From positions 78,023-142,022 of the forward strand of contig JASAMV010005168.1 in assembly GCA_030248065.1 (NCBI GenBank): a DNA stretch of 64,000 nucleotides, in the 5' to 3' direction. How positions within the stretch are numbered: position 1 is the first letter of the stretch; every line of letters begins with the position of its first letter. The notes beneath the pieces were generated by a model. It saw only the letters and a list, made by a program, of their open reading frames with translations. It did no database searches and was not told the DNA's origin. Positions 35,922 through 64,000 of the stretch are shown one piece after another. This stretch comes from Rhynchonema sp. JSB1_4. Its lineage: Eukaryota > Nematoda > Chromadorea > Monhysterida > Xyalidae. A program made the translations under genes and the position numbers.

Positions 35922-38900
35922 ATGACGTCATTGCAACGCTGCATGCCCCGATTAGTGGTACGTCAACTGTGCGCCGGTACAGTCAACCGACGACATGTGC
36001 ATGTAGCTGTGATCGGATCGGGACCCGCCGGATTCTATTTTATTGGTTCCCTGCTCAGACACTGTCCCACGGCGAACGTGGACATTTATGAGAAACAACC
36101 GATACCGTTTGGTTGGTTCGGGCGTTATTTTCGTTTCGATATGGGCATTGCTCAAGTGCTGATAATTTGGCGCGCCATCATGGCTTTGTGTCTGACTGAG
36201 TTCGTGCTGCGCCCTGTATTCACAAGCGAAGTCCTGGGTGGGCTTCACATTTGTGCTCGTAAAACATAACATCTCTGGTAATTGGCCCTCGTGTCGTTTA
36301 GGTCTTGCCCGATTCGGTGTGGCGCCGGATCATCCGGAGGTGAAGAATTGCATTCATCAATTTGAGAAAACTGTGGGCGACAGAAAAGAACAGCTGTCGT
36401 TTTTGGGCAATGTTGCTGTCGGACGTGACGTCACTATAGATGAACTCAGGTGCGATACTGATGTTTCACTTGATTATGTTCCTGATCACGGATGTTCTCC
36501 ATGATCTTTAGGTTCAATTCGCTGCTACTTTGATCCTTACCTGACCCCATACCAATTTTTAGGTGCAAACTGCACCCGACATTGCGTGAAAACTTACGTT
36601 GCTGATGTTTCATTACCCGATTCCATGTTTCAGGTCTGCTTACGACATTGTTGTGTGCGCGTACGGTGCTGAAGGTGATAAGAAACTGTGTGTACCAGGT
36701 GAAGATGCCGTCAACAGCGTTTCGGCACGCGAGTTTGTAGGATGGTACAATGGGCTCCCGGAAGCACAGGATCTCAAGGTGGTTATTTACATGTTACATC
36801 ATTGTTTAGTTCAAATATTTTTCGTTATAATAATGATATAATTTTTGCAGTAATGTTGGTCTGTTTCGCCCTGCCTTCGCAGACAGACCGAGGCGCCAGG
36901 GCTCGTCAGTGCGAACGCCTCTGGTAAATTTTCCTCCAAAAAGCCCCACCAGCAGATCTTATTGCTGGCCTGTAACATCACTGCGTGCATAGCGAGGGCA
37001 GAGAGCCACTACGACAAACAGTGCAGTGCACACAGTGCAGTCACATCCAGCGCAACGTGTCCCTCTGAACAAAGTGTGCTGCAGTAATTCCTTCACTTTG
37101 TTGGCGACGTGAATGAACTGTATAACGTGTTTTCGGCTGCCCGTTTCGACCCATTTGCATAGATTAGGTTCACGTGGTGATCGTCAGTGTCAACGCACTA
37201 GATAACCCAAAAACATGGTGGCTGAGCATGGTCATAACACCCATCCATCATCACAGGTCGACCTCTCATGCGAACATGCTGTGGTCGTCGGTCAGGGCAA
37301 CGTTGCACTGGATGTGGCCCGGGTGTTGTTGTCACCAATTGATAGATTGCGAAACACGGACACAACTGAACACGCGTTGCAAGCATTGGCACAGAGCACA
37401 ATCAAACGGGTCACACTCGTGGGACGACGCGGGCCGTTGCAGGTGTGGGGTGGTCAATATTTGGCAGTATGTTTGACATGAAATATCGTTTGTGTTTGTT
37501 CGTTTTACGACAGGTCACGATTGATGTACTGCACAGCACTGCTATGAGTTCCACCAGCATGAAAGCTAAGTCAAGACACTAGAAACTCCCTCTGATGAAC
37601 TGCCTAAACCCTAAATTATACTATTTCAATAAGTAACGTACCTAGACCCGGCCAGTGCTGTGGCGGGGGGGGGGGTGGGGGGTCCCCCAATGGTACCCTA
37701 CCCCCTACCCGCCCCGGCCTGGTACACTACCCCCCTACCCGCCCCGCTCCGGTACCCTACCCCCCTACCCACCCCGCTCTGGTACCCTACCCGCCCCGAT
37801 TTTTGCCCACAAAATGCCCATTTTTCGGTCAAAAATGCCCAAATTTCGACCGAAAACCCTTAAAAGTGCAAAAAATCGCGCGCTACGCGCGATATAGGCA
37901 CTTTATAGCATATAAAAATAGGCACCCAAAAAAACTTGTATTGTACCCTACCCGCCCCGAAAAATCTCCCCCCCAAACCGGATCTCCCCCCCCACGATCC
38001 CAGGTACACTACCCCCCTACCCGCCCCGGATTTTTCCACCTATGTACCCTACCCGCTCCGCAAAAGTAGTCACAGCACTGGACCCGACCCACTAACAGTG
38101 GGCACGGCTGGGTCATCAAGTTTGTCAGGATGTGCAAGAAGCTTTTCATCTTGAAGAGGGCTTACCTCTGATCAACAGGATTTGTCACGCAGTACATTTA
38201 TAATTCCCCATTCAGGTGTCGTTCACAGTCAAAGAGCTGCGCGAAATGATCAACCTGCCCGGTTCAGTGCCCCGATTCGATCCATCGGACTATCCCGACC
38301 TGTCACCGAACGACATCAAACGTCTGCCTCGACCGAGACAACGACTTACAGATTTGCTCATCCGCACAGCCCGCCAGCCACCGACCAAACAACCTGCAGA
38401 TCAGCACAAAGAGTGGACGTTGAAATTCCTTCGGTCGCCGGTTCGAGTTTTGACTGATTCCGAATCGGGTCAGGTGTCGGGCATCGAACTGAGATCGAAT
38501 CGATTGGATATGGATTGGAATAATTTGTCAAAAGTGATGGATGCAAAAGTCTCGCCTGATGATAATGTTCCAACTGAGGTGTTGCCCTGTCAACTGTTGT
38601 TCACAAGTATCGGTTATCGATCGATGCAGGTGAAAGGCTTGCCGTACGATGCCAAACGAAATGTGATCAAGACTGAACAAGATGGAATGAGAGTGAAGGT
38701 AAAGTTTAATTTATTGTCGAGCTCTGCCTGAGTCCCTCAGAAAAAATGCTCACTTCCGGTTCTGAAAAAGAGTTAGAATTCCTCAAATGTTCGGCTCTGC
38801 AAGGTGAAAGTCCATTTGTGATACCAGTAAGCTCAACAAGAAAACGCCTGTAAAGAAGACCACCGTTGTACTGACTGTCAAGGCTGAGACTTTCAAAATG

Positions 38901-39279
38901 GCATCAATTTGGCGCAACAGTGTTTGTTTAGAATGACAACCCTTCGTCTCTTGTTTAGGATCTACCGGGTGTGTACGCGACGGGTTGGTGTGCCAGAGGT
39001 GCGACGGGCGTTATCGCGACCACACAGACAGAGTCGGCCTCGGCCGCACAACTGGTCGCACGGGATATTAACGATCTGGTGAAACATCAGCCAGCTGGGC
39101 GGAAACAAGGTGGTGTTGTGATCCAAGGCCTGTTGCGTGAACGACGCATTCCGTGGGTCAGTTGGCCTGAATGGATGGTCATAGACGCACGCGAACAGCA
39201 GTTGGGATCGAAACACGGCAAACCCAGGGAGAAGCTGACCAATGTTCATGATATACTGCATGTGCTCAATAAGGAATAG
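35922..39279 (+). CDS. FDXR: NADPH:adrenodoxin (ferredoxin) oxidoreductase, mitochondrial
   Basis: Flavoprotein that passes electrons from NADPH to mitochondrial ferredoxin for steroid/P450 and Fe-S cluster chemistry. Six exons: 35922-36111, 36302-36449, 36634-36778, 37257-37442, 38216-38698 and 38959-39279 (TAG), with matching phases, giving 490 aa against about 491 in human. The chosen ATG gives a basic N-terminus ([16 protein letters not shown]), but upstream in-frame ATGs at 35885 and 35891 are possible. FAD fold: [15 protein letters not shown]. Then [31 protein letters not shown] fold [42 protein letters not shown] and [17 protein letters not shown]. Intron 4 holds a family-E hAT element (37653-38080). 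Confidence 0.96.
36890..36921. repeat. intronic hairpin motif, copy in FDXR intron 3
   Basis: Stem GAGGCG/CGCCTC around a loop ending CTCGTCAGTGCGAA. All six stem pairs form, with bases different from the other copies. Confidence 0.6.
37171..37198. repeat. intronic hairpin motif, weak copy in FDXR intron 3
   Basis: It shares GGTGATCGTCAGTGTCAACG with the loop region but the stem is lost. Confidence 0.35.
37653..38080. mobile_element. family-E hAT element in FDXR intron 4
   Basis: Tips CAGTGCTGTGGC / GTCACAGCACTG. Flanks GACCCGGC (37645-37652) and GACCCGAC (38081-38088) match at 7 of 8 bases. CTACCCGCCCCG units surround an A/T core with the palindrome ATCGCGCGCTACGCGCGAT (37875-37892). Confidence 0.88.
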
Positions 39280-39383
39280 GTGCTGCTGCAATTGGTTGAT
39301 TCATGTTTAATTCCCCGATTTTTTATTTTGAGGGCTTTTTGGTGAGCGGGATTTTTGGGCCGCGTCATCTTTGCGGTCATTTG

Positions 39384-40691
39384 TAGGGATCGGCGTCGGT
39401 GTCGGAAAAAAGTCGGTGTAGGTACCGACACTACTAATGTCGGTGTCGGTGTCGGTGTCGGTGTCGGTCCACAAAAGTGTCGGTTTTTTTCAGGTGTCGG
39501 TAGTGTCGGTCCCCAATTTTTCGGCAGCCAACTACTATTAGAAAAAAAATATATTTCGTACTGATTATGTTCTTTAGTTGTCCACAACATATAAAAAAGC
39601 GCCAAGCGCTGGTTTTGAACGACCAATTCCTCATACACGGTTCAGTTTCAATTCTGCAGCAGTGCAACACAACAAGAGAACAATTTTTTTGGAATCAGAT
39701 TAAAGGAAAGACATGCGAACAGAATGAGAAATATCAATCACGAGTTATTTGCGAAGGACACCGATACATCATTATTCTCCATCACATCAGATACACTCAA
39801 TTGTACAAGTATTGACACGTGGGTAGCATACGCTTCAGGAACAACAACTTTTCAGCAGTGTCTGGTTTCAAGCGATTTCGGTACTTCGTGTAGATGCTGG
39901 CAGCCAGGCTGAATTCTTGTTCAGACATTGTGCTTGTCGGTGCTGCTGATAAGTACCGTTTCGCCATTTTCGACAAACGAGGGAACAACACTTCGTTGTT
40001 GCGCCACCACACAAAGGGGTCGTCGTCCAATTCGATCATTGGCGCGTTCAAATACGATTCGAATTCCTGTGATTTGAAATAAATTGTTTCCCGCGCGAGT
40101 CCGCCCGGACTAGCTTTGCAAAACCTAGTCGGTTCAGAATATCAAAATCGGTCTCTTTTGACGCCATTTTAGGCCTGCAAATATGCAAAAATGGTTCGAA
40201 ATAGGTTTAGCTAACAAAATGAGGGGTTTCGGCGACGCTTTTTATAGTGGCCGATGCCTTTGTACCACTTCAAACATGAAAACACAAAATTCTGAACAAC
40301 AAAAGTTGCGCTCATGGTAAAAATCCGGTTCGTTCCAACGTTGAATGTTTCACTGAGAGTGAGAGGCGGACAGAACCTGTTTGTTCCTGCGACAAAGAGA
40401 CAGACCTATCCTATCATACAAAGTTCATAATTGTTTTTTGTTTTGGTATTTGATCCCTCTTTTTTCAGGTGAGAAGTACACCAACACACCGGTTTTTGTC
40501 CAAAAAGGCATTTTAGGTCTAAAAATAAGTTTTTAGGGCTAAAAAAGGCAAACTCGGTTTTACTGTCGGTGTCGGTCATTTTTTCACTGTCGGTGTCGGT
40601 GTCGGCGTGCTTTTTCGCCGGTGTCGGTACTTTCCAAAAAAGTGTCGGTGTCGGTGTCGGTGTCGGTCTACATGACCGACGCCGATCCCTA
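39384..40691 (-). mobile_element. hAT element with GTCGGT repeats and a transposase remnant
   Basis: Tips TAGGGATCGGCGTCGGT / ACCGACGCCGATCCCTA with exact target duplication GTCATTTG at 39376-39383 and 40692-40699. Both ends carry GTCGGTGTCGGT arrays. The middle encodes, on the minus strand, the C-terminal hAT dimerisation domain. It is 1308 bp, so most of the transposase gene has been deleted. Confidence 0.93.
39797..40072 (-). pseudogene. hAT transposase C-terminal dimerisation domain (remnant)
   Basis: The minus frame reads SQEFESYLNAP, then DPFVWWRNNEVLFPRLSKMA, YLSAAPTSTMSEQEFSLA and RNRLKPDTAEKLLFLKRM. This is the hallmark WW...FP.L...A..YL...S...E..FS pattern of the hAT dimerisation region. 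Catalytic and DNA-binding parts are absent, so it cannot transpose alone. Confidence 0.88.
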
Positions 40692-40699
40692 GTCATTTG

Positions 40700-42851
40700 A
40701 TGCATTTTCGCCACTTAGAGCTTGTGAAAGGGCAATTCTCTCCTTTCAATTCGTTTACCAAACAAGAACACATTTTTATAGCACATGTGATGTGATACTC
40801 CCACGATTGACAATCGTGCATTTTCTCCTGTATTCCCGCCCTGTCTGAGTGCAAATATTCAAATCCTTATGCAAAGCGTTGAACATTGTGTTCATGTTCA
40901 GGACTGATGGCGCGTTTTGCGCTAAACTTGTTTTCTCATCACAGAGAGTTGCTGCTCGTTTCTGTTTTATAACGTTGTTCATTGAAGCGAATAAAGAACA
41001 CCAATTCAGTTTCCTAATCGCATCGATGGTTGCGTCGGTTAAATGGCGTTGTTCACTGACACACGGGTGCGCCGTTGGATGCACTCTACTTTTCTCATGT
41101 TCAGTTGCGAACACATAATACCAGAACTGGGAGCAGCTCAGTTCTGAGTATGTACTGGATCAGCTGGTCACCAGTGAGTGACAGCTTGCTGTTCAGCTTA
41201 TGTCTAAGCAACTGTTATGCTTGAGGATTGAGGCCGTACTAAGACTGAGATTAGGCTAGTGAGCTGCCAGAATCTGTGTCTGCTATGTAACCGCTTGTGT
41301 GGTTCCTGCAGTTTCACTTGTTCCCTGACGCCCCTAATCCAGATCTCTGATGACTAGTTTTGATTCTTGCGCTCATGAGGTCGCTAAACAGCGGGACAAC
41401 CTCTGCGCTGAGCACCGCCTGTGACGTCACATCCGTTTGTCTGCGCACTTCAGCAGCTGCCCGATTCTGCCCCCTCCAACAAATTGCAGTCTGTTGAGCT
41501 GATTCAAACCCATTCATCGCGGGGCGACGTGCTTCTGTTGGTTTAGCTCATCATATTGTATGCTCACTCGCGTTTGCGCTTGAAATTCACATTTTGCCCG
41601 TTTATGTATTTTGCGACGGGATTGTTATGCGCTCTTGCCCTTGTCGGCTGCCTGCCTGTCTTGCTTGTTGCAATGTGGAACTTTGTCCATGCCCAATGTT
41701 CTCCGAGTGCATATTTGCGTGTGACATGGGTGCCGTATTGCTAGTGGCGGGACAAACTTGTTTCTTTTAGACATTACTGTTTCTGGCAGCCGGCAACTTG
41801 TCTGGAACCGGGTGATAAGCCTCTCTGTTGATGTTGTTTGGCAGTTTTTATGACATTAGGGTTCGGGGCTATTTTATGCAGCTTTCTCAAGCATGACCAC
41901 GTGTGTGTGTGTATGCATGGTGTACGCTAGCCCTGTTTACCAGTCGCGTATGCACGTCGGCACATTGTGTGACTAAGTTCTGTCCGCACAAGCAAGCATG
42001 TATGTATTGTGTGTGAGCCTCTGTACTCGCTGTATTATTATGCGAACCAAAATCGTAAACATTTCCGAGTAAGATCAGCTGCACCTGTGCATGTGCTATT
42101 TGAGTCGAGTGCTTTACTGGAGTGAGTTCGCATCCGTGACGCACAGGATCGTACTTTTGGCGTAAACCTGTGCATGTGAAGGCCCGGTTCCAGTGGGGCG
42201 TCAACGTCACGTTACGCGCGTCACGTAGCGCTGAAAAAAGCTGTTTTTCGTTTCCAGGCCGAAACGGGCAAAACTCACTGCTTTTACATTATTGTAACGT
42301 ACCAGTGGAGTGTGGCTAACTTGTGGTTTAATTACCCGTTGCCCTCTTTCACTGGCTTGCACTTTTGTGCGCAGCAGTGATGTTTTACTTGAGCAATAAG
42401 ATCTGCTCAAGGTCCTTTTTGCAGGTCAATTGGCCAGAGGTGTTCGCACCGACGAGGCCTGGCACCTCGCCCGCCTGTGAAAACAGGCCGAAACGGGCAA
42501 AAGTCACTGCTGTTACATTATTCCCCCTCGTCACGCAGACAATTGGATTGGTTTCGCGGAATTCTGATAATCTCAGATGCTTAACAGTCATGTCATGACA
42601 TCAAACAAGGAGAAAACGAAATTTTTGAATCGAAAATGATGATAAAACAGTTCCTGATCTGCTGTATGGCGGCGGTGACGCAAATGGATGCCACCAAATT
42701 GGCGGGGACAAATAAGCGGTGACGCCGCAGCGTTTTTCGCTCTACTGTATATGGTCAGAAAATAGCGAAGTCACGTGACCTTGCCGTGACGCCCCACTGG
42801 AAACAGGCCTGAAAGCATATAAATGCCGCCGTGAACTCAAGCAGCTGTAAC
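40700..42851. other. unique intergenic sequence
   Basis: No exon with domain or splice support. Open frames at 40776-41118 and 41556-41744 look like chance. A GGCCGAAACGGGCAAAA string occurs near 42257 and again near 42486, suggesting a short local duplication. Confidence 0.4.
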
Positions 42852-43354
42852 CAGGGTTGGGCAAAAAAACGACGGCGTTTTTTCTTAAAAAACGACGTTT
42901 TTTTTAAAAAGAAACGCCTTGGTTGTTTTTCGTTTTTCTTAAATCCTGAATTTCCTTGCTTTCCCCTGATTTTTCAGGGAAAGTACCCTGATTATCAAGG
43001 AAAATCAATTTTTTGTCCCATTTTTTTCAAAAAATTTTCGACCAACTTTTACTTTGTCGAGATTCGTCGATATACGCAGTTTGACTTTCAATGATGACCC
43101 CGCCCAAAGTTGGTCCCATGATGTGGGTCTGATATGGGATCTTAACAACTCGCTAGAAAAGGTTTGAAACCCGTTTATTTTCCCTCAGAACACATAGAAT
43201 TACTTCATTTAACCACGTTTTCTTCCCAACATGAGCGTTTTCCAATTTTTGGGGGGCATATTTTGGTCATCTGGGCGTTTTAAAAAAACGTTTTTAAAAA
43301 AAACGTTTTTAAAAAAACGATTTTTTGAAAAAAAACGTTTTTTGCCCAACCCTG
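42852..43354. mobile_element. hAT MITE, 503 bp, CAGGGTTGGGC tips
   Basis: Tips CAGGGTTGGGCAAAAAA / TTTTTTGCCCAACCCTG with exact target duplication GCTGTAAC at 42844-42851 and 43355-43362. Runs of AAAAACG / CGTTTTT make up the sub-terminal zones. No coding capacity. Confidence 0.93.
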
Positions 43355-44342: not shown

Positions 44343-47300
44343 ATGACGTTGAATAACGCCGATCACGACTTCGAGTCTGAGCCGTGCGGCGGTCTGGACC
44401 CTGAGACGGCAAGGCGGAATGCCGACAAATTCACGCTTTATGCCGCTGATCGACAATTTGACGGGCTGACTTATGATCTGGAGGGCCAGTGGTCGGGGCC
44501 CTATTGTTTCGTCCAAGCCGCTGACACCCAATTTGGCATGATGGCCAACTTTAGATGGGACCGGAAAAGGACAGATCCCACAACGATGGTGAATGGACCT
44601 GATGATCAGGCAAACACGTCCAGGGACAATGGTGATGATGATGATGATGACGATAGACAATTGATTGACTGGACGCAAGAGGTACGTAAAGGCAAACTAC
44701 ACCAACACGAGCCCGATTTCGAAGGTGGCGTGTATTCAAAACGAATAGAAAGAGAAAATCATCATGCTCCATTTTGTATTCTTCAACGTGTAACATTTCC
44801 CAAATCAGCAGCCACGTATGAATGTTTCACCATTCTGCCAGCTGCGAAATCGAGCTGATGTTGGTGTGGTTTGTCTTTACGTGTGGCTTGGTAGTACCTC
44901 TGACCTATTATGTGCCACAGTAGACCGGCGGCGTACCAGGACTTCGTCAGTACAACTGCACCAGATTGTCGCGTGTGAATAAAAAAAGGAAAAACGTATG
45001 TTTACTGCTCACGAATATCTCACGAGCGTGTCAGTGGGAGTCATTTTGCACCTAGTCTGTTACTAATCATGAAAATAATTTCTTCCTGAGATAACTCTGG
45101 CTTGGAGAATGGTGGTGTCAGGTGCTAATTCTATACCAACAGGACGCAAAAGGGGTAATATTCGATTCAGGTGCAATTAACAGCGCGTGCCGTGGATGCG
45201 ATCAACCGTATTCGACCCCGACCTCGATTCTTTGTTGTTTGTGGCGATCTGATTGATGCCATGCCCGGCGAGGAGTACAGATCGGTGCAGATCAGGGATT
45301 ATAAGGTTGGTGACTTGTGGGAAAGAAAAATTGAGTCTACCTGCTGTGTTCATGTACATGATCAGGCGGGATCGGGACCTGGAATTTTTGGTCACCATGA
45401 GATAGGCCAACACAACAACAACAACGGCAGCAGCGCAGGAGCTAAACCAGCGGTGCATTGCGTTTTGTCCTCCTGCAAAACCGGAACATGTCATGGCTTA
45501 TTTTGATAGGCAACAGACGACAAATGATGTTGAACCCTCCTTGCGCGCAGCAGGTCAAAGATACCTGACAAATAAAGTTCACATTATCACACACTTTACT
45601 TTACATTCTGTCTGACAGAGTGTCCTATCCCACCTGCATCCCGACATCCGTCCGATTTGTGTGTGCGGCAATCACGACATCGGCAATCGTCCGACACCCG
45701 ACACTATCGATTCGTATCGACGCGATTTCGGCGATGACTACTTCGAATTCTGGGTCGGCGGATGTCGGTGGGTGTCGAACCCGTAGCTTACAATACTCTA
45801 TGGCTTATAGTCTCACCGATTGAGCTACGCGCTCTTTCAAATTGCAGATATTTGGTGCTCAACTCGCAATTCTACCAAGACGACAGTCAATGTCGACAAC
45901 TCAGGCTCGAACACGACAACTGGCTGGACGCGAAACTCAAACCGAACGCTCATCGGCCGCACAAACATTTCATTGGCTTCCAGGTTGGTTGATGCCATAA
46001 AATTCGCTCAGAGTGATGTCTTGTCTTGCGTGTTACCCCTTTCACAAAGTTCGTTCTAGGTCCTCAACTGCAAACACACGATAAGCCTAACGTTAAGTGG
46101 AAGAAGCATAATTTGTAGACGTGTAAAGTGTACGGAGCTGAAAATAAATACAAAACAGGGTTGAAAGTTACGGGAATGAAAAATAAATGCAAAACCAGGA
46201 CAGGAAAGGGGGAGAAGGTGGACGAAATCACGAGACAGACAGACACAAACTTTGTTCAAGTTCAACTGACACGCAGCTTTTCCGAAAGCCTAGCGTTTGT
46301 GACTTGTGAAGTGTGAGCTTAGCTCCGTAGCTGGGCTATCGATCAATGAAACCAATTGCACCGCCATTGATGTGACGTCACGGCCCCGTTTCGTGCTCTT
46401 TTCACGCACGGATGGTGCACCAGGTCATCGTCAGTGCGAATGCAGCAATTTATAGCATAAGTCAGTGAGAACGCATCTTATTCCCCTGATCAAACGTCAC
46501 TTGTTGAACTGCATTCAGCACGTCGCCCCGTTCCTATACGAGCGACACGAGGAGCCCGTGGACGTGTTCGGCGACTATCGATGGTGCTTCAATTTCGGCG
46601 ATCGAAAAACGAGATATGAATTTCTGGACAAACTCAAATCGGCCGGCATGAGCAAACTGTTCTGTGGACATTACCATCGGAATGCGGGCGGCTGGGATGA
46701 CAAGCTGGAGGTGGGTGACTGGATCAGTCGAAGAATATTTTCCAGAAAGAGATTCATTTATGAAAGTAATAGAATCGATTCGTACCCTTCTCTTTTGTCA
46801 CGTGGTCACCTGGTACATTCTCATTGAAGATCCACTGGTGCACCGCCTGTCTGTGAAGCACCGGACGAAGCGAGAAAAACTAACGTGTGTAAGCAAAATT
46901 GTTTGATGGAGGTCCAAGCATAGTTTTAGACATTTTACGTGCATTGTGGAGCTAAAATTTCAGGAGTGCATCTAAAAATAGAAGATTAGGTGCAATTTGC
47001 ACAAATTTTTTTTGGCATTTTGCACAGACAACAAAATTTTAGGCCTAAAACTTGGACATCTATGTGCAAACGCACCTCGTGAATTTTGAAAAAAAAAACA
47101 TGGGAAAGCCCAAGCGCATCAACCATTTCGGTGTCCCCTGTACTCCATTGAGCGTGATGTCATATTAATTGTATCCTCCTCATCTGACCCGAACAACCCA
47201 CACAGGTTGTCGTGACGTCAGCAGTCGGATGTCAGCTCGGTTCCGATGCGCACGGACTTCGGATCGTCAAAGTCACTGAATCGTCGGTCACACACGAGTA

Positions 47301-49785: not shown

Positions 49786-52700
49786 ATGCTGGTGTCAATT
49801 CAGTTCTGGCTATTCTGCGTTCTTTGGGCTGTGATCGTACAGTAAGTTGGCGATTTTCATTGTTTTCTGTCATTTCTAATCACAAATCATTCTTATTTTT
49901 ACATGAAACTTTTCAGTAATCTCAGTGCTTACATTCCATACCTGATCGTGCGTGTGGCGCTGGTTCTGCTCTGTCCGCTGTATTTCAAGTTGGTCTTCGG
50001 GGGTTTTCAGTGTTTTGTTGTTCTCAGACACCTTTGCGGTAAAATCGATGTTTCATGCAGCTCACTGGGTAAGATCAGCCGTCAAGTCCTTTGCGCACTG
50101 GTCAACCACATAGCCCGCTGACTGATGTTTCACTGTGAGAAATGATCGCATCAAAATTCTTGTATTGTTTATTATCCAAACCAAGCTATTCGTTAAGGTT
50201 TCATGCGAAACACGGCCGTATTCACCAATCGAGTTTTATCAAACAGGCCCTATTTCTACAAACAAGTGCCCAGCGACAAACGATGTGACGGTCGTACCGT
50301 GTGTGTGATCGGCGCGAGCACTGGCATTGGACGAGCGTTGGCTCGCCTGCTCACTGACAGAGGTATTGGTGTCCGTTGGAAGAGTGTATGGGAAAGATCA
50401 ACGTTGAAGGCACTGTTGTGAAGTATTCAGCGCGCTTTGCTTGCCCGATTCTACCTGTTTACAAAGACGGATGGTGCACCAAGTCATCGTCAGTGCGTAT
50501 GCACCACGTGGCAACGCGACTCCAAGATCACACACGAACTGGCTTGGATGTCCAAGGGTGCCAGAACGTTTCGCTATGCCACTTGCTGTTTCATAAAACT
50601 TAGGTTCATTCGTTGCTCTCAAAGTTGTATTCATAACCCGGCTGCATGGCTAAATGTTTCACCCGCTTGTATCCCCCACAGGTGCGACGGTGGTGCGTGC
50701 GGCCCGTTCAATCGATATGTTGGAGACACAACAAAAAGAAGATGGCGGATCGGGTCTATCGTTGCACGTGGATTTGGCAGATTTGGGTTCGATTCGCCGT
50801 TTTGCCGCACAGCTGAAGGCACAAGTACCGCGACTGGACTGTTTGGTGTTGAATGCTGCCTATCACGGAGCACAACGCACCACAAAGGACGGGTTCGAGT
50901 ATACGCTGGGTGTCAATCATTTGGGTTTGTGCAATATTGTGGGACTTTATTGGTCGTTTAAAATTTGAGATACAGTCTACCCTCTTTATAGTGACATGAT
51001 CGGGACCACCCATTTTCAGTCCCTATTAAGAACTTCCACTATGTAGTGTGTAACTTTGAGGTTAACGCAGATCGAGGATTAAAACGGCTTTAAAACAATA
51101 TTGACTACATGGATGGTACCACCATAAAGGGTGTCAGTGTAAAGAGATTATCCTGTAATTTCCTTGCGGTGTGACTGAAATTAACGGCCGTGAATCAAAC
51201 TTGGTGAGTAAGTTGGATCTGTGTCTTGGTCACATGCCGTTGTTGATCGAGGACGTTTGGAGATTGAAGCTGTCCGATTTTGCATCATCGTGAGGGCTGT
51301 CGATTAGCTGACAATGTAGAACCTGTTCTTTCAAATAAACAGTTATCTGACTGCGTCAACATCGGCTTAGGGCCGAGATCCTGTCACCGTGTACTGTATG
51401 ACGCCGACGCAAGCTCATTTCCATCCCAATATCCCACTACCTGCAGGTCACATGTATCTGGTGCACGAACTGCTCGACGTGTTGATTCGCAACGGTCCGT
51501 CACAGATTGTCGTGGTCGCGTCAGACTTGCATCGAATGTGTCCGAAAGTCAGATTCAATGTGAGTTTCGGTTAGCTGGATTCGTGATCACAAAGCGCAAA
51601 AATTGGCAACACGTGTTACAAGTTAAACCGCAACTTCGCATCGCAGTCTGGTGGCCTGCTAAAATGCTGTTTGTAACTTACGCATCGAGCCACAGGGCGT
51701 GAACGTATCAGACAAAACAAATTGTCGAAATTATTCGCAGTATCTGTATCTGGTCCATTTTCATTTCTTCACAGGATCTCATGTACCAAGCACCCGGCAG
51801 CTATACGTTGATGGGCTTTACGGCATACAATCACAGCAAATTGTGCAATGTGTTGTTCGCCGGAGAATTGGCATCACGGTTGAGGGGTGAGTGTCACGCC
51901 ATAATATTGTATTGAATTGAATAAAACGTGTGTTCTGATTAAGCTCAAGTCCAGGCAGTAGCGATTCTTGGATATTAATGCTCAATAATTGATGCCCCCT
52001 TTGCGGAGTCGAGTTGCCATGCTACGACATTTGTCCAATCCGTCTTACAAACTGACGGTGGTGAACCAGTTTATCGTCAGTGCGAATGCACGGAAGTTTA
52101 ACTCCTTATTACGTAACCACTTGTTCTTCAGGCACAGGTGTGACCGTCAGCGCAGCACACCCAGGCACCCCGGTCCAAAGTGAACTAGTCCGTTCAAATG
52201 CGTTTTTCGGCCATTGGCTAATCCACAACTACATTCTGCCGTTGGTCTACTTTCTGTGGTGTCGACGAGCTGCGGATGGGGCACAAACGTTGTTGCATTG
52301 CGTGGTGGATAGACAGGCACAGACACAAACCGGACTGTACTATGAGTGAGTGCAGTTCAGTAGCTGGGAATTTGATAGCTTTTGTATGACCACTGCCCAG
52401 AGTGCGACAGTTTGCCAGTTTAGTTCGGTATTCACCGACGAACGGAACACAAGGATGTGAGTGAATTAGTTGATCGCTAAAGCGGTGAGATCAGTTTGTG
52501 CTGCGCTCATAAAACCTAACTTGCTGAGCACGAAAGTGCAACGCAGTGAGAAGTATTGCTAAGGTAGTGGGTATTCCTTCTCAATTGTGACCCTGACCCT
52601 ACCAGATGTTTACGTTCAGGGGATGCTCCAGGATTACACTAAGTGTGTTGATAGTGCTGAGTGCAGCCTACGCTAAGCCTAACCATGAAAGTGAATCTTC

Positions 52701-55531: not shown

Positions 55532-58313
55532 ATGTACACCAAAATCTTACTCGCCATTTGTTTGAGCTTGTTCGCTGGCAGTCAAAGTGCGACGGGCCTG
55601 AAGTCGACCGATTTCGACCTGAAGGACAACGCTGTGTGCTATGCAACAAAGATCGAATGTGAGTATAATGCAATCAACTGGCGGGAATCCTAGTTCTCAA
55701 GTATAATTGTGTAATCACAGGCAAGTTGGTGTAATGTGGTTTTGTCATTGACTTTGGGGCGATGGACCCCCTGCGATGATCGCAGTGGTCCCCCTGAGGC
55801 ACATTGCCACGGTCAATTAGTGTTTCGCAGTTTCGGCCCCAAAAACCACCAGGAGTGCAGTTTCGGTGTCGCTTATGGATAACGAGTATACAGTGTAAGC
55901 TTTTGATGTTTCATATCACGCAGGTGACACACAATGCAAGGAGGACTCGTGGCAGTACTGCCAAGAATTCAAGTCGTGCAACGGGGGTACGGCGCGCAGA
56001 TGGTCGTGTCAGCCAGACATTGCGTCGATTGTGAAGACATTCGGAACGTGAGCTGCATTTAAATATTATTGAACAGTGAAAGTGTGATATGTATAATAAG
56101 AGCACACCAAGTTTCTGGTCGGTGTGATTGCTCGGATCCAGCCTCTGCCCGGGGTCGGTTCGACTGAAGGGTACTTGATCGGGTATCAAAATATTAAAGG
56201 ATTCGGAGCCCAGGTACGCAAGGAGATTTTGACCACACACACCATGCAGAAGTTCACCATAAGGCAAGGCTGTCCGAAGCAGGGTTGTTTCAAAAAAAGT
56301 GGTTAATTAAAAAATTTTTTTTAAACTCAGATTTTGCTTTTTTTAAATTAAAAAAAGTTGCCCAAATTGGGCTGAAATGTCCAAAAATGCCCTTTTTCGA
56401 GGCAAAAGATTGGCACTTTTTTCTGTGGACGGGACAATTTTTCCAAAATCGCGCCTGCAGCGCCCTGTTTTGTCCCCAAATCCGTACAGGGATGCGCGGG
56501 GCTGGTCTTTTATAGTGATGTGGCACCGATAATGTACTACTACATGCTACTACACATGTATATATGCAGGTCTGGTGTAAAACCGGACGCGAAAAGTCGA
56601 TCTGAAATAAAAGTCGATCTGATATTAAAATACGTTGTACGGCATGCTACAATACATCAGAGTAAGGCTGCCTTCACAATGCATGCGCGTTTGCGCGTTT
56701 GCGCATTTGCGCACGAAACTGACGCGCATTTGTGTTCACAATGCATTTGCGCGTTTGCGCATCTGCGCGTTTGCGCGCGGAGCTCGTGCGCATGCGCAAA
56801 CGCGCACGCGCATTTGTGTTCACAATGCATTTGCGCGTTTGCGCGTCTGCGCGTTTTTGACGCGCAAACGCGCAAAAATACGATTAGGATTGGTTCTAAT
56901 TTTGCGTGCGCGTTCGGCTTGCCCGAGCTGCCTGAAGCAAAAAAACAAACAAATTATATTTTAAAAACGATATGGCCACCAGCCACTTGTTACGATCCTT
57001 TTACGTTTGTTGTTTTATCACTCAGCCATTGTTTATGTTTCATTTCAAAAGTCATTCTTTCACAGGAAACAAAATGTCGAAAATTGTATTTTTCACAACT
57101 TGTCGTGTTTTTTTCTTGTTCGTATGCTTTTCTTTGAACAATTTCAATGGAATCGGGTGCAGTGTTCAACTTTTGTTGTGTTTGATAGCAATTTTATGTA
57201 TTTTCCATCATTCGTTGCCAAAAAATATTCCCCAATCTCAAGTTTTCCTTTTAAAAATTACATCATGGGACAGCAAAGGTGAATGCTCATCAACAGACGA
57301 TGAGCTCAATCTCCCGCCGGACGCATGCCAGCCCAGTACGAATATGAAAATGCAAAAAAAACAACTGTTCCAAATTTCATGCACACGCTATTCTAATCTG
57401 ATGCGCAAACGCGCATGTCCATTGTGAACACAGATGCGCACTGCGCGTTTGCGCATTTGCGCGTACGCGTTTGCGCATGAAATTTGCATTGTGAACACCA
57501 TGCGCAAACGCGCATGCATTGTGAAGGCAGCCTAACATCGTTAGTCAACATGAACCTCAGACTGGTCGGAGACCCTGGAATCTGCACAATACTACCGGGT
57601 GTCACCACACAAGTTCGGTCTCAGGCGAAAATTTTTCAATTTTTCAAAAATATGTTGTATCGATTTCATTTATCCTGAAACGTCGTTTACAACACTTTTT
57701 CTAATAAAAAAATTTTTCGTCAAAAAAAAATTTTTTTTAAAAAAACTCGTTAATTAAAATTTTTTTTTCAACCCTGGTCCGAAGCGTATAAATAGGTACC
57801 CAGCTTTCAAACTTCATCAACTTTGATAATACGCGAAAGGCCAAGTCATTGGTTTCATGGTTGTGAAACATCAGCCAGATTACCATTTCAGTGTGGCCAT
57901 AGTCATCCTGGTGGTATGCATTATCGGTGCAATCCTGTGCTGCGTCTGTGTGGGCGTTTGCATCTATTGCTGCATCAAGAAGAAAAGCTCACAGCCGGGA
58001 CAGGTGAATAATTTAGGATTTGGTTCTTTGTTGATTTGTTTATGTTGAGTTTGGGTATCTGTGTAAGTATGCATTGGTCACCTGCACGAATCAGGGGCCA
58101 CTTGTTTCCTTATACCTCGAATTCTGACTCAGGAACTCTGTCAAATTTTTCCGATTCTGAGCAGCAGTTTCATATCCCAAAGACAAACCGATGAAACATC
58201 AAGAATACATTAGTACATGTTCACTTACCACCTCCTGTTTGCAGGTTATCGGTCAACCAGGCACAGTGCAATACACAACCTCATCGCAGCAGGCTGCATT
58301 CAAGGGTGTTTGA
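55532..58313 (+). CDS. small cysteine-rich single-pass membrane protein
   Basis: Four phase-matched exons: 55532-55658, 55924-56047, 57892-58003 and 58245-58313 (TGA), 143 aa. Layout: signal peptide (MYTKILLAICLSLFAGSQS), a short ectodomain with six cysteines (IECDTQCKEDSWQYCQEFKS, CNGGTARRWSCQ), a transmembrane helix (VAIVILVVCIIGAIL) running straight into a Cys-rich juxtamembrane CCVCVGVCIYCC, then KKK and a Gln/Ser tail. The shape recalls shisa/CYYR1/VOPP1-like adaptors, but I do not recognise an orthologue. AATAAA follows at about 58402. Intron 2 carries a 1.5-kb hAT element. Confidence 0.75.
56280..57776. mobile_element. 1.5-kb non-autonomous hAT element, CAGGGTTG tips
   Basis: Tips CAGGGTTG / CAACCCTG with exact duplication GTCCGAAG at 56272-56279 and 57777-57784. 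TTAATTAAAA and long A/T runs mark the sub-terminal zones. A second element is nested at 56666-57532. It shares CAGGGTTG with the MITE at 42852. Confidence 0.92.
56666..57532. mobile_element. PIF/Harbinger-like element nested in the hAT, GCGCGTTTGCGC arrays
   Basis: Inverted ends GGCTGCCTTCACAATGCATG / complement, with TAA at 56663-56665 and 57533-57535. Sub-terminal arrays are GCGCGTTTGCGCATTTGCGC variants interrupted by TTCACAATGCAT. The middle (56890-57380) is A/T-rich with no recognised protein. Confidence 0.88.
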
Positions 58314-60121
58314 ATATTTGTGATGTCCGTAACCAGAACCAAACGCTGCATCAGAATTGATAATTGGACCGGTTCGGTCGCGTGTTTTTTCGATGATCAC
58401 ACAATAAATACCTGATTTGCGAGTCTCAAAGTGTTTGTTTATGTTCACTGAAAGTTTCAATGGACCAAAACCGGCCCGATTACCAACTTTGAGGCTAGTC
58501 TGCCCAATATCATATCCTCAAATGTTATTTTTTAGTCTCAAATATTATTTCCCCTCTCACTTTCCTTCGCGCATAATCAAACGGAACAGAGCTGATTTGA
58601 ATGATTAAAACAGCAACATTTTGCGCTACAGCACACTCGAAAGCGATGCCAAATGATCGGTTCCATAAAATCTTCCGTTCAACTGTATTTACTTTCCTGC
58701 ATTCAAAATGTTGTACTTTCATTTGTACGTATAGTTTTAAAATACACATCTGCATGAACAGCAATTACTCGTCGTTTTATTTCTTTATTTCGGTATTTGG
58801 TGTGTGTGTTTTTCGTCGCTTTTCTTGTTTTCGGTGTGTAGTTTCCACAAACATTTCTCCATTAGCCTCACACATTTTGAACTTTCCGGGTTCGTTACGT
58901 GGCTGTGTGAACATGGTTCATATAAAATTTGTAGCTACAACTGCTCTCGCAGCTGTTCTTCGATCGAAGATGGGTTCGCAGAAAGCATGGCTGTACGTCT
59001 ATTACACAAGCAACCGCCAATTCTTGTAACTCTCAAAAAGAACGCGCGGTAGCAAGCTATGAACGAAAAGAAAAAGCCTGCCTATATTTACGAGCTCATT
59101 CTTGCGTTCGACCCATAGCCACAGGTGTATATCGTACTTAGAGGGTTAGGAGTAGAGCAGGATGAAGGTCACTTGGGAACAATCGCTCTGCTGGGGCACT
59201 AAAATGGAGTGGAGCAAAATCTTGAAAACAAAAAAAACAGATTTCTTCAAACAGGCAACCTCTAAAAATATGAAACAACTCTTTCGCCACCAAAGGAACA
59301 ATGTAACCAGTAGACCAGTTGGAAAAGATTTTCAGGTCTTCAATTCGATCACAGGCGTTGTGCTCCCAGCCACGTCTCCTGATGATAAAATTGACTAACC
59401 AATGATTAAATCGAATTTTAATATTTTTCAATCAGTCAAAATTGGAACCAACAAATGGAGCGTTTCAGCGAACGACGTCTACAACTGTTTTCGCACGAAT
59501 TGAAGACTGCACTCGTGTTTTTCGCATGTTTTTCTCCTGTGGTTCTTTGTGTTCTTTGAGTTTCAGGTTCGATCGTCGCGCACCGTTTCTGTCTCATATT
59601 TTCTCATGAAAAATTTCGAGTATTTCCGTGAAATGTAAGATTTGCCAGTTGAACGTACAAATTTCTCACCAGCATGCACATGCAGTATTGTATCATACTT
59701 CCCCTCTGATACTTGTATTTAGTTTTGTTAACAGCAGAAGGTTTATGAGAGTTGGTTGGATTTTTGCATTTCAACGAAAAGTTGGATTTTTGTTCGATGG
59801 TTATGACAAGATTGTTGGTGATTCCTGCATGCGATTTTTGTTTAAAAAGATTGATTTGAGATTTTTCAAGACCAGACACATGCGTTTTATTCCTCCACAA
59901 CTATTCATTCCTTTTTAGTGATGACCCTTATCTCTTTTAAGACGGCCATAACTCTCTGCACAGGACTGTCCGAATTGAAAATTTTAAAAAGCTAGGTGAT
60001 AGATGATAAAATTGCGCATCGTAACATGACAAGATTGTTCCGATTTGTTATAGTGTGGTCCAAAAATACCTCTCCTATTTTGTCAATTGGTGACTCGTTT
60101 TTGGTCCATATTCAGACGATT
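58314..60121. other. intergenic, no gene recognised
   Basis: A/T-rich unique sequence downstream of the membrane-protein gene. Open frames at 58601-59029, 59162-59398 and 59628-59918 have no domain or splice support. Confidence 0.4.
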
Positions 60122-61690
60122 TTTTTAATTTTCCCAAAGGTCTCCACCGAAAGGATTACCAGCTTCGAGTAGCCCAGACACCTCGCTACAACTTTCTCAG
60201 TCTCAGTGGTTTTTGAATCTGGAGCTCTCCGGAACCAGAAATTAATCATATTTTTTTCGGACCACACGAGAACGTTTATGCGAAACACATCGGCGTGGGT
60301 TGGTGAAACATCAGCGCTGTGGGTCACGGCTGCGGGATCGGATCATTGCAATCAGCCGATCTGCTAATCCACTTTTCCATTGGGAACAAAAAAGCATGCG
60401 TGAAAAAGCGATCCGCTAATCCGCTAAGGTCTCCACCGAAAGGATTACCAATTTCGAGTAGCCCAGACACCTCGTTACAACTTTCTCAGTCTCAGTGGTT
60501 TTTCAATCTGGAGCTCTCCGGAACCAGAACCGGAACTGGAACCGGAACCCAGAATTGATACATGCGAATAAGCCGCACAATATTGATCTAATTGGAAAAA
60601 CAATGTGTGCGATACATAGGTTTTCGGGGTCGAGAAATCCAATGGTGACAATGATATTTGGATCCGGACCTCTCCGGAGCCAGAACCAGAACTAGAACCG
60701 AAACTCAGCATTTGTTCATCCAGATCAGCCGCACAATACTGGTCTGATCGTGAAGACAGTGTGTGCGATAGATAAGTATGTTTTCGGGAACGAGGAATCC
60801 AATAGTGACATTGATTTTTGGATCCGGAGCTTTCCGGGACCGGAACGAAAACCGGATCCTGTAACAATAATGTATCTGACAGTGGCAAGATGATCGAATT
60901 CCGAGAAATTAATCATATTTTTTTCGGACCACACGAGAACGTTTATGCGAAACACATCGGCGTGGGTTGGTGAAACATCAACGCTGTGGGTCACGGCTGC
61001 GGGATCGGATCATTGCGCACAGCTCACCGATACAGTTCTTTCAGCATCGCTAATTAATTCAATACATCACTGGTAATTATTTGGATGTTCTTTCAGCATC
61101 GCCAATTAATTCAACACATCACTGTGAATTATTTGGAAGTTCTTTCAGCATCGCCAATTAATTCAACGCATCACTGGGAATTATTTGGAAGTTCTTTCAG
61201 CATCGCCAATTAATTCAATACATCACTGGTAATTATTTGGATGTTCTTTCAGCATCGCCAATTAATTCAACCAATCAATCAATTCAATCAATTCAATCAA
61301 TCAATCAATTCTTTCGGTGGAGACCTTAGCGGATTAGCGGATCGCTTTTTCACGCATGCTTTTTTGTTCCCAATGGAAAAGTGGATTAGCAGATCGGCTG
61401 ATTGCAATGATCCGATCCCGCAGCCGTGACCCTGACGATGTCCAAGTGCAGTGCCTGTCTGGGGAAACAGAAATGAGCCACAAGACAAAGTTTGGGCAAA
61501 GCTTAAGCAATAATAAGAGGAAAAATGCCTTTGAACTCAACACCCAAGTGCACATAGGCATGGGTTAGTGAAACATCAACGCTGTGTGTCACGGCTGCGG
61601 GATCGGATCATTGCAATCAGCCGATCTGCTAATCCACTTTTCCATTGGGAACAAAAAAGCATGCGTGAAAAAGCGATCCGCTAATCCGCA
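60122..61690. repeat. complex local duplication: two blocks in direct and inverted copies
   Basis: Block X (AATCATATTTTTTTCGGACC to GGATCGGATCATTG) occurs at about 60242-60350 and 60909-61015, partly at 61557-61613. Block Y (CAATCAGCCGATCTGC ... GCGATCCGCTAATCCGC) occurs at about 60349-60427 and 61613-61690, inverted at 61325-61411. Between them are units of about 155 bases with GGAGCTCTCCGGAACCAGAA at 60512, 60665 and 60825. Confidence 0.75.
61035..61272. repeat. 52-bp tandem repeat, about 4.5 copies
   Basis: Units start GTTCTTTCAGCATCGC at 61035, 61087, 61139, 61191 and 61243, an exact 52-base step. The last is cut short into CAATCAATCAATTCAAT microsatellite. Confidence 0.92.
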
Positions 61691-62113
61691 ACCCGCTGAT
61701 CCGCTAATCCGCTGCATTGGGCAGTCGGCCTATGTTTTATGATGCCCAGACTGCTGTCTGAACACTTGTATAGCTTGAGTAGCGATTAGGAATGTGCAAT
61801 TTGCCCTTTAAGCTGGCTTGGTTGTATTGATCCGGTTTCACCTCAGATTTATTCATTTGTTGCAATACTGTCATCCCGAAAATCAGTAAAAGACCGCAGA
61901 CCTACATATACAACGGTATCTTCATCCCGCCCTGTCTCCAAGAAATATACCCAACTGCCGAAATACAAATCAGTAGCAAGTGAGTTGGCTTGAGCTTGGA
62001 TAAATCCGGAAAAGATGAATGTTCAAAAATGTTAGGTGCTGCAACCAGGGCCAGTACATTCAGTTCCAATAGATTCAATAGATTTATCAGTCACAACGCA
62101 ACTTTTAAGGCCA

Positions 62114-62239
62114 CTTTATACTTTGTTTCGTTGCGATACACGCAACATTTTCTGAAGCGCTGATTGGCTCGTGCGCGCGCAACAGCCAATCAGCGCGCGA
62201 GAAAATGTTGCGTGTATCGCTACGAGACAAAGTATAAAG
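62114..62239. repeat. fold-back hairpin, arms about 56 bases
   Basis: Left arm CTTTATACTTTGTTTCGTTG... and right arm ...ACAAAGTATAAAG are near-complementary, with a short GC-rich loop (GTGCGCGCGCAAC). TTTTAAGGCC / GGCCTTTAAAA extends the symmetry outward. Probably a small MITE. Confidence 0.8.
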
Positions 62240-62567
62240 CGGCGGCCTTTAAAATTAAAGAAGAGAACAAAGATTACCTGAAAGAAATACTCCTCGAACT
62301 TTAGTGTCAAAATTAAAAAAAAGCATTGTAAAATGTTCGACTGGACCACGTCTGACCCCTGGGCAACGACAAATTTTGAAAATGAGCCGTGTATTTTGCA
62401 AAAGAGCAGGATGTTAAATAAGCTACATAGTTGTTGCGTGGTAATCACAGCAACAAGTTCAGCCAAAAATTCTGTGGTGGCAGTAGCTAAGGCTTGCTTT
62501 TGGTTACCAACTTTTAATAACTTTTTCTTTTAACTTTTGTACTTCAATACGATTGTTCAAGTTTCAG

Positions 62568-63560
62568 TGACGCGCGGCCCAAAGGTGAAAAGAACGGAAT
62601 TATACTCATTCTATTCATTGGCGCTGATTGAGAGCGTCCAGAATGGCGAGTTGGAAGTGAAAGAAGCAACCAATCTGTTGAAAAAGCAATTGACCGAACA
62701 GCAAATCAGAACCTACACAACCGACAAACACATGATCGAATCTTTCCGCGCGTTGTGCAAGAAAGTATGTACCGGAGTTTTCCGTCTACAGCCCCCTCCC
62801 TCCGAATAGTGCCCCATGGGGCTGCTGAATTAGGCAGATTTTCCAAATATAGATTTCCCATGCGGCTCTATTAGGGATATTTTCTTCTGTCTTTCGGTAT
62901 CAAATTTTGTAGTTTTGTACGGCTGTTTTTATCCAAAAATTGACTGTTTTTTTTCACCATAACAGCCTGTACTTGTGTTTTCTGGTTGTTTTGTATGCCT
63001 GTGTGCATTACTGATGCATTTATACAACGTCCTGACTCATAACAGCACGGATTGAAAACTTTATCACTGATTGGCATTTTGACGACTTTCCGAATAGAGC
63101 CACATGGGGCTCTATTTTTGAAAAACATTCTTGACAAAAAGACGGATTTTCGCTCTTTTTCCGAATAGAGCCCCTGCGGCTGTAGACGGAAAAGTCCGGT
63201 ATGTACATGCACTCTACTTCAACCATGTATTGGACATGCTTTGACGAGAAGCAAACCAACGCTGCAGCTTGGCTTTGGGCTTTTAGACCATACTGTAGCC
63301 CCTGAAATTGATGTCCAAAAATGGTTTGAGTTACTGAAGCCATACATTGCACGCTTTGCAGGCGAAAGCACAAGAATCATGGAACATTTAGCACGCTGAT
63401 AAATATCACTCGGAAAGCATGCAAATACGTGGCTACAGTAACCCGTAGCATGCTATATTTCCAGCATGCTATATTGTTTATTATATTTCAGCCGTTCGGT
63501 CAACTGGTCAAGGTTCGCACAAATCTCGGAATCAAACCGACGTTGAGCAGTGACAACAAG
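62568..63560 (+). CDS. unrecognised protein, two internal exons seen; gene runs off the window
   Basis: Exons 62568-62764 (after GTTTCAG, two leading bases) and 63492-63560 (after TATTTCAG), both ending on codon boundaries at GTATGT and GTTTTG. The encoded part has a helical, charged region (LYSFYSLALIESVQNGELE, KEATNLLKKQLTEQQIR, MIESFRALCKK) then PFGQLVKVRTNLGIKPT. Low-complexity or transposon origin is unlikely given the clean splice phases. I do not recognise the family. The start exon lies upstream of 62568 and is not identified. Confidence 0.55.
62772..63199. mobile_element. TIR element inserted 7 bases after an exon end
   Basis: Tips CCGGAGTTTTCCGTCTACAG / complement, flanked by TATGTA at 62766-62771 and 63200-63205. 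GAATAGAGCCCC...GGGGCTCTATT hairpins lie inside. The target duplication overlaps the donor GTATGT of the exon ending at 62764. Confidence 0.82.
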
Positions 63561-64000
63561 GTTTTGTCATTTTTTGTTGGTTGTTTTTTTATGAACATAA
63601 GTGGACCGTCTGAGTGACTTTTAATAAGATAAGCAGCATATACTTAAGCGACCAATGCGAATTGTGATCGAGGGTATTTTTGGTTGCCTGATGCGTGGTT
63701 CGACCCTCTCTCGCAGACGGGCGGGTGCACGAGGTCATCGTCAGTTCGTGTGCACCAGGTGAAGCTTCAAATTCCTCAGTCGCTTTTATGAGTCAGTTTT
63801 TTAATGCATCTCTCCTTTTGTCATTACGTCTGTGCGGTACAATACAATTGCAAATTTTGAAAAACACACTCATTATGAATGCCTTATTCCACAACTAAAC
63901 GATGCGTGCCCGCTAGTATGCAAACTGGCCGGCCAGCTTTTTTGGCCTCATGCCAAACTCGTTGTTTGAAGTTCTGTGATGTTTCATTTGAATCCGGCTG
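63561..64000. other. intron or downstream sequence of the last gene
   Basis: Apart from the hairpin motif at 63724 and GATGTTTCA at 63978, nothing is recognised. A further exon may lie beyond the window. Confidence 0.35.
63724..63756. repeat. intronic hairpin motif, copy near the window end
   Basis: GGTGCA/TGCACC stem fully paired, with loop CGAGGTCATCGTCAGTTCG. Upstream CGCAGACGGGC is shared with the FDXR copy (CGCAGACAGACC). Confidence 0.6.

Follow-up and report, generated by a model that had tools for sequence, protein, structure and literature searches.

We report that a hairpin scattered through a 64,000-nucleotide stretch of the genome of the nematode Rhynchonema sp. JSB1_4 (positions 78023-142022 of contig JASAMV010005168.1; hereafter the window) is an inner piece of a dispersed repeat of ~240 bp, and that the strand complementary to the hairpin very probably has the architecture of a type-CSG hammerhead ribozyme, a non-circularly permuted form in which the three conserved blocks follow one another as C (CUGAnGA), S (the cleavage site), and G (GAAA). 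The hairpin had been singled out from the window's sequence alone as six copies with a constant loop (TCATCGTCAGTGCG) and compensating stem changes, and was interpreted as a structured intronic RNA or the end of a tiny structured element (the original prediction). The longer repeat emerged when we searched the whole genome (203.9 Mb, 5747 contigs) with a young copy. As an exact 14-mer the loop occurs 1119 times (533 + 586 on the two strands), versus 0 for a reversed-pattern control, and the motif therefore belongs to a large repeat family; inside the window, loop matches with up to three mismatches are mildly above chance (10 versus a mean of 4.2, with 3 of 100 shuffles reaching 10). We strongly favor reading this family as a retrozyme-like mobile element with a type-CSG hammerhead core.

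A probable hammerhead of permuted order on the complementary strand

Read on the complementary strand, the loop TCATCGTCAGTGCG becomes CGCACUGACGAUGA, which contains CUGACGA; a second conserved string, GTTTCG, becomes CGAAAC; and a third, AGACGGGC, becomes GCCCGUCU. This strand carries the three conserved strands of a hammerhead, namely CUGAnGA, GAAA, and an NUH cleavage triplet (GUC). Stem I pairs UUCGCA, 5' of CUGACGA, with UGCGAA, 3' of GUC. In the lineage that we call A, stem II pairs GACCUG, which follows CUGACGA-U, with CAGGUC before GAAA, and stem III pairs ACGGGC, whose first base is the final A of GAAA, with the GCCCGU that directly precedes the C of GUC. The stem of the original prediction, GGUGCA/UGCACC, is a bridge helix that flanks stems I and II and ties their far ends. 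From 5' to 3' the elements run as the bridge 5' half, the stem I 5' half, CUGACGA, the stem II 5' half, one base, the bridge 3' half, the stem III 3' half ending in GU, the C after which cleavage is predicted, the stem I 3' half, two bases, the stem II 3' half, GAA, and the stem III 5' half beginning with A. In the 243-bp A unit this core occupies nt 148-210, with predicted cleavage after nt 187. Because CUGAnGA, the site, and GAAA stand here in the cyclic order opposite to that of canonical types I, II, and III, the fold is pseudoknotted. CTGACGA recurs close to the 5' end of the A unit (nt 56-62 in locus L032), there without a matchable GAAA or site, and this second occurrence could be chance or a relic.

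The core is carried by at least three source lineages, A, B, and C. Lineage A has stem II GACCUG/CAGGUC, bridge GGUGCA/UGCACC, and an extra U after CUGACGA, and its count is that of the 1119 exact 14-mers. Lineage B has CCGACGA, stem II GGCCUG/CAGGCC, and bridge GAGGUG/CACCUC (293 exact 16-mers genome-wide), while lineage C, the type found in the FDXR gene of the window, has CUGACGA, stem II GCCCUG/CAGGGC, bridge GAGGCG/CGCCUC, and stem III GGUCUGU/ACAGACC (356 exact 17-mers). Block by block, C reads UUCGCA-CUGACGA-U-GACCUG in lineage A and UUCGCA-CUGACGA-GCCCUG in lineage C, with B departing (CCGACGA); S reads GCCCGUC followed by UGCGAA in A and GGUCUGUC followed by UGCGAA in C, with GUC in one B locus (L010) and GCC in the B copy of the window; and G reads CAGGUC-GAA-ACGGGC in A and CAGGGC-GAA-ACAGACC in C. 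Stem and linker lengths agree across the alignable A, B, and C copies, apart from one extra stem III pair in C. Three examined copies represent lineage B and one represents lineage C, the wider lineages being known by counts and identities: among the places scored, 41 others align with C at 94-98% over ~141-157 bp, and the other best-scored B places share 91-96% identity with the copy in the window. A 39-base stretch from the 5' half of the FDXR copy, with both bridge halves, has 111 exact occurrences in the genome, including the FDXR copy.

The hairpin had been thought to resemble no described family, whereas the core resembles one of the non-circular hammerhead permutations published in 2023 by Eckert, Friedrich, Weinberg and Weinberg (PMC10085705). 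In the accessible parts of that paper, type CSG comprises two sequences that resemble each other and covary modestly, and whose source the main text does not give. As monomeric RNAs, 77-78 nt long, the two were shown to cleave in vitro at the predicted position, with rates of 0.004 and 0.026 per minute, and the authors, who mention a helix joining stems I and II, rate the type as likely valid, with weaker evidence of biological relevance than for type SGC (PMC10085705). The repeat shares with published type CSG the block order, the core nucleotides, and all four helices, including the tie between stems I and II; the 40 + 23 nt of the A core (bridge to stem III) are compatible with the published fragments of 48/49 nt and 29 nt, flanks included. 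It differs in being a dispersed family of more than 1000 copies and at least three lineages in an animal genome, and in the extra U10 of lineage A. A related animal may be the source of the two sequences already published. Type SGC (HRIMA-1 and its variants) is likewise non-circularly permuted and pseudoknotted with a bridge helix, but its order is S-G-C, and the accessible text places none of its 583 predicted sequences, from metatranscriptomes, metagenomes, and RefSeq, in a genomic repeat family; for one of these sequences each of the four helices was disrupted and repaired (PMC10085705). Within the literature searched, type CSG and HRIMA-1 turn up in PMC10085705 only, and no such element appears in the titles or abstract openings of the best-matching literature on retrozymes, hammerheads, and nematode genomes.

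Judging from its sequence, the type-CSG core is probably catalytically active. Insertions known beside CUGAnGA amount, in the accessible text, to one or two nt at most (PMC10085705), and that of lineage A is a single U, placed between A9 and G10.1. In CChMVd, the plus hammerhead carries an additional A between the same two nucleotides, and its replacement by U raises trans-cleavage 3-4-fold (PMC3705267); the U of lineage A is therefore no argument against activity. Rfam gave no match at gathering score in the window, and its hammerhead families gave none at E <= 10 in 8 loci; family RF00163 gave none in the whole genome, where the control was likewise without a match.

Chance expectation, conservation, and covariation

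We scanned for three hammerhead blocks in any of the six strand orders, with at least 5 contiguous pairs per stem, in 0.72 Mb of strand that had been picked for the repeat and not for hammerhead features, using first-order random strand as the control. The scan found 12 distinct C-S-G matches, all in the repeat, plus 1 of another order; the 40 Mb of random strand contained no C-S-G match and 6 matches in other orders. A looser scan returned 12 C-S-G matches and 1 canonical match in the examined strand, and 1 match of another permuted order in 3.6 Mb of random strand.

Conservation of the loop holds by construction in most seed loci because these were fetched via the exact loop, one loop variant, or one young copy. 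We thus measured conservation of the eleven hammerhead invariants on unsought copies, 15 from outside the window, or 20 with the five window copies that were absent from the original prediction; being found by profile, these copies are biased toward the better-conserved part of the repeat. We found that the invariants were kept in 138/156 cases (88.5%) in the 15 copies, versus 557/711 (78.3%) for neighboring positions (permutation P = 0.007), and in 184/207 (88.9%) versus 77.6% with the five window copies added (P = 0.0008). A wider set of 34 copies, some of them sought and 11 from the window, gave 320/351 (91.2%) versus 79.7%, such that the clean 15-copy test is weaker than this set and points in the same direction. 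G5, A6, G8, and A9 were each kept in 14-15 of the 15 unsought copies, and the free position 7 in 11.

For pair counting we chose 30 copies by eye, excluding non-repeat rows, gross indels, rows without the S or G block, and some similar rows; this selection inflates the percentage paired, and its unselected counterpart is an arm-shuffle test on the copy pool, given below. In the 30 copies, 90.0% of the cells of the four-helix pseudoknot were paired, and 9 of the 24 pairs changed on both sides (shuffles 4.0 ± 1.7; 2/500 reach it): four of the six bridge pairs, three pairs in stem III, and one each in stems II and I. Double-sided cells numbered 21 (shuffles 4.7 ± 2.1; 0/500), and the covariation score was 0.159, as compared to 0.103 when shuffled and at most 0.061 when slid. 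The second pair of stem II takes all four Watson-Crick forms: A-U in lineage A, G-C in B, C-G in C, and U-A in locus L061.

Spread of the repeat and rival explanations

The length of the A unit, 243 bp, was measured in a natural partial dimer at L032. Viewed on the strand of the hairpin motif, the left end of the repeat is fixed between ..AA and TGTGAATTGT.., and the right end breaks off at many different points; seen on the ribozyme strand, the 3' end is constant and the 5' end truncated to varying extents, which is the usual look of reverse-transcribed elements. Thirteen distinct loci reach to within 15 nt of the unit start, and 9 of them run on into a second unit by ~10 to 156 nt, a count to be read with the fact that several long loci were fetched for carrying the unit's 5' part. 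Lineage C forms a dimer with a period of 235 bp on contig C4099, and C units with neighboring partial units lie on C4190, C133, and C1307 at a spacing of ~224-235 bp; lineage B has a second partial unit alongside at six places, the window's included; and some arrays are dimers or trimers. The two ends of the unit are complementary and change together between lineages, from TGTGAA..TTCACA in A to TGTAAC..GTTACA in B. The junction of tandem units (A in L032; B at ~42270-42310 of the window) folds into a hairpin with an asymmetric internal loop, 2x4 and 3x5, the helices of which differ on both sides between A and B.

Cleavage is predicted after nt 187 of 243, which leaves the fixed 3' end 56 nt further downstream, so that linear cleaved monomers would not be the template, and circles or uncleaved multimers fit in their place. 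We lean toward a retrozyme-type mode of spread, in which transcripts of the unit would cut themselves to unit length and then be circularized, and a borrowed reverse transcriptase would start at the fixed site (..CAATTCACATT) and might go more than one round of the template; cleavage, the circular RNA, and the identity of the reverse transcriptase used are steps that we infer. A possible mobilizer is encoded in the window itself, by an open reading frame of 820 aa on the minus strand (28983..31448; Pfam RVT_1, 1.8e-11) that we take to be Penelope-like from its YVDDTF motif. Its best-scoring relative is an environmental protein (51% identity over 95%), and its relatives carry RVT_1, one of them being labeled a predicted GIY-YIG endonuclease by its source. 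A canonical hammerhead was looked for in the region of this reading frame, and none was found there.

Run-ons, dimers, and a 3' end away from the cleavage site match the model for metazoan retrozymes, in which circles are reverse-transcribed into complementary DNA exceeding unit length, with Penelope-like elements suspected as helpers (PMC7761336, PMC7229834). Like metazoan retrozymes lacking long terminal repeats, the repeat is a short unit (150-450 bp in theirs) that occurs as dimers to multimers and is built round a hammerhead; in the accessible text those elements carry type I hammerheads (PMC7229834, PMC7761336), whereas the repeat is of type CSG and has no detected target-site duplications. 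Penelope-like elements with minimal type I hammerheads resemble it in having tandem copies and hammerheads (PMC7761336), and the window itself contains a reverse transcriptase of Penelope-like type, but the repeat has no sequence in common with that element.

Several results weigh against a retrozyme-like family with an intact hammerhead core. U4 is kept in 10/15 unsought copies, which places it among the least conserved columns, and it is lost in lineage B, which has C for U at position 4 of CUGAnGA and in the window copy also the triplet GCC; with both changes in view, the ribozyme may be weak or inactive in some lineages. Genome-wide, a distinctive string of 18 bases taken from the 3' half of the FDXR copy has 12 occurrences, versus 111 for the 5' stretch; as the string spans two linker bases, its rarity may reflect a lineage difference in the linker or an FDXR copy that is atypical there. 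Four of the 13 long loci stop near the unit boundary with no run-on, and among the nine run-ons, that at L058 is marked by a deletion where the two units meet. We found no target-site duplication: shared flank words of 6-8 bases were the longest in 12/51 rows, versus 7.6 expected from cross-pairings (8.3 for >=6). No sequence link was found between the repeat and the reverse transcriptase reading frame of the window. Finally, covariation in the unselected pool, made up mostly of decayed copies from a single lineage, is weak by the arm-shuffle test (stem III, P = 0.021; stem II, P = 0.018; stem I, P = 0.086; bridge, P = 0.39), and the originally predicted stem alone, in 116 full rows, forms 597 pairs versus 595.2 ± 2.8 when shuffled, which is no covariation. 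Weak covariation in the pool is what we would expect if inserted copies decay neutrally and only source elements are selected. The compensating changes of the original prediction thus hold between source lineages (the 39-base C stretch found 111 times, and the covariation of the 30 copies) and fail within the pool of decayed copies.

These points bear on four other explanations. An ordinary short interspersed element (SINE) or other short repeat, with its middle conserved by descent only and its likeness to a hammerhead coincidental, would agree with the many decayed copies, with more than 1000 interspersed insertions, and with the predicted stem that does not covary in the pool. We consider it improbable in view of the excess of C-S-G matches in repeat sequence (12 versus 0 in 40 Mb of random strand), the covariation of the helices between lineages, and the better conservation of the hammerhead invariants; in addition, ARAGORN (bacterial code) reported no tRNA in 8 long-copy loci or in the window. 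A SINE with a tRNA promoter was considered specifically and is disfavored: the upstream string GTTTCGACCC / GTTTCGACC is B-box-like but corresponds to the GAAA block read on the opposite strand, and ARAGORN found no tRNA in these loci or the window. We give very little credence to a non-autonomous DNA transposon resembling a miniature inverted-repeat transposable element, for which the complementary ends would be terminal inverted repeats recognized by a transposase. That these ends change together between A and B speaks for it, but only one end is fixed, no target-site duplication rises above cross-pairings, and copies run on into second units.

It is also unlikely, though less so, that the ribozyme acts only between neighboring units, as a nested canonical hammerhead in which one unit supplies blocks C and G and the following unit supplies block S. 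Both forms contain the same helices, so that covariation in stems I-III cannot discriminate between them; a number of copies are partial dimers, and dimeric action is described for some animal hammerheads (PMC7229834). In monomeric form, two type-CSG RNAs (77-78 nt) nevertheless cleave in vitro (PMC10085705), and the bridge, which is most sensible in the permuted fold, covaries in four of its six pairs. The idea of the original prediction, a dedicated intronic RNA that acts on its host genes, we find scarcely credible. Plus-strand copies in genes are intronic (exons by eye) and their structure is under selection, but there are more than 1000 copies on both strands of the genome, 4 of the 11 in the window lie on the other strand, the copy pool shows little constraint, and in the very copies on which the idea was based the ribozyme runs antisense to its host gene. 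What survives of it is selection on RNA structure and a tiny structured element, with the structured RNA on the opposite strand and the predicted stem as one of four helices.

Taking the retrozyme-like family as our preferred reading, we regard as slightly better than even the chance that an animal retrozyme lineage runs on a type-CSG hammerhead, the order of which has been kept through at least three lineages, with paired mutations in the helices, and in well over 1000 copies. If so, hundreds of near-intact copies and three covarying lineages would settle type CSG as biological and would supply a large natural alignment of it for structure work, and retrozymes would be able to spread with a fold other than type I. 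There may also be a use in the permuted order itself: the bridge and stem III hairpins could form without stems I and II, leaving the unit circle inactive while long transcripts fold and cut. It would then be testable whether the order is selected (e.g. for switching between precursor and circle) or arose neutrally, by accidental rearrangement of the blocks.

Copies in the window, host genes, and other repeats

With a profile constructed from young copies and given one round of refinement, we located 11 copies in the window, with the hairpin motif on the plus strand in seven and on the minus strand in four. All six copies of the original prediction are present, with the loop exact at 46425 and 50484, one mismatch at 52071 and 63735, and three mismatches at 36900 and 37178. 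Perfect 6-bp stems occur at 50473 and 63724 (GGTGCA/TGCACC) and at 36890 (GAGGCG/CGCCTC), the two forms differing on both sides in three pairs. The set was incomplete, and its restriction to one strand arose because only one strand had been read: four copies lie on the other strand, and a seventh plus copy lies at 44921-45022.

The copy at 36890 is the lineage C copy in the FDXR intron (36842..36990, ribozyme on the minus strand). Its core (36856-36922) consists of bridge GAGGCG/CGCCTC, stem I TTCGCA/TGCGAA, CTGACGA, stem II GCCCTG/CAGGGC, stem III GGTCTGT/ACAGACC, the site GTC, and GAAA. A diverged copy in the same intron (37114..37215, minus; profile E 2e-13) corresponds to 37171, and the one that had been missed (44921..45022, minus; E 1.7e-13) is also diverged. 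Three lineage A copies have the ribozyme on the minus strand: 46385..46448 (46414 in the original prediction), with an intact C block (CTGACGATGACC) and decayed stems II and III; 50417..50545 (50473), in an intron of an SDR gene (E 2.1e-29); and 63654..63762 (63724), with the fixed end intact (E 9.3e-18). A short remnant at 52045..52091 (52057; minus, E 2.3e-7) completes the seven. With the ribozyme on the plus strand there are a lineage B copy (42340..42540; core 42436-42501, with CCGACGA, stem II GGCCTG/CAGGCC, bridge GAGGTG/CACCTC, and triplet GCC), a copy at 46759..46877 (E 3.3e-16), a diverged copy at 1775..1853 (E 1.3e-12), and a short remnant at 61432..61483 (E 3.7e-5). Adjoining the B copy is a truncated second B unit on the plus strand (42255..42293; 94.9% over 39 bp), which makes a partial dimer.

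Exon positions in the host genes were read by eye. Protein search with exon pieces joined by eye confirmed FDXR (best match Plectus sambesii, 50% identity), and the organisms named among the 120 protein matches listed are animals. The SDR gene is recognized by Pfam adh_short on one exon (3.1e-7), its remaining exons being assigned by eye, and further copies lie near a metallophosphatase-like gene with a weak match (Pfam Metallophos, E 0.038, below its cut-off). Two copies share one FDXR intron, and two others lie in introns of the SDR gene. The claim that gene copies are intronic and on the sense strand agrees with the plus copies in the FDXR, metallophosphatase-like, and SDR genes, and fails for 46759-46877 if this copy is inside the metallophosphatase-like gene. 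In or near these three plus-strand genes, the ribozyme is antisense to the host in 6/7 copies (36842-37215, 44921-46877, and 50417-52091), an excess that, in a tiny sample, could reflect selection against self-cutting RNA in the transcript.

Other features of the window concern different sequences. Strings resembling tRNA, with A-box-like and B-box-like parts, occur at 28725 and 45771, both on the minus strand; ARAGORN found no tRNA in the window, and the strings are possibly tRNA remnants or tRNA-derived repeats. Rfam families other than the hammerheads gave microRNA-like and snoRNA-like matches only, all below gathering score, and were set aside. At another locus, an inverted repeat (L047:2357-2535) is microRNA-precursor-like on both strands (MIR1319, 58 bits, below gathering score) and is probably a foldback element. 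Another repeat (..TTTTTGGCGACCCCCCC..CCATCTATCTATCGTCAACAAGTTTGGGTCGATCCCC..) has three copies in both orientations within 3 kb, at 14049 (minus), 15745 (plus), and 16869 (minus). Runs of a TGCGCGTTTGCGC-type repeat lie at 56684-56877 and 57442-57487, arrays of the hexamer GTCGGT at 39423-39468 and 40543-40673, and a dense block of tandem and near-tandem repeats at 60137-61690, which includes an array with a 52-bp period at 61034-61293.

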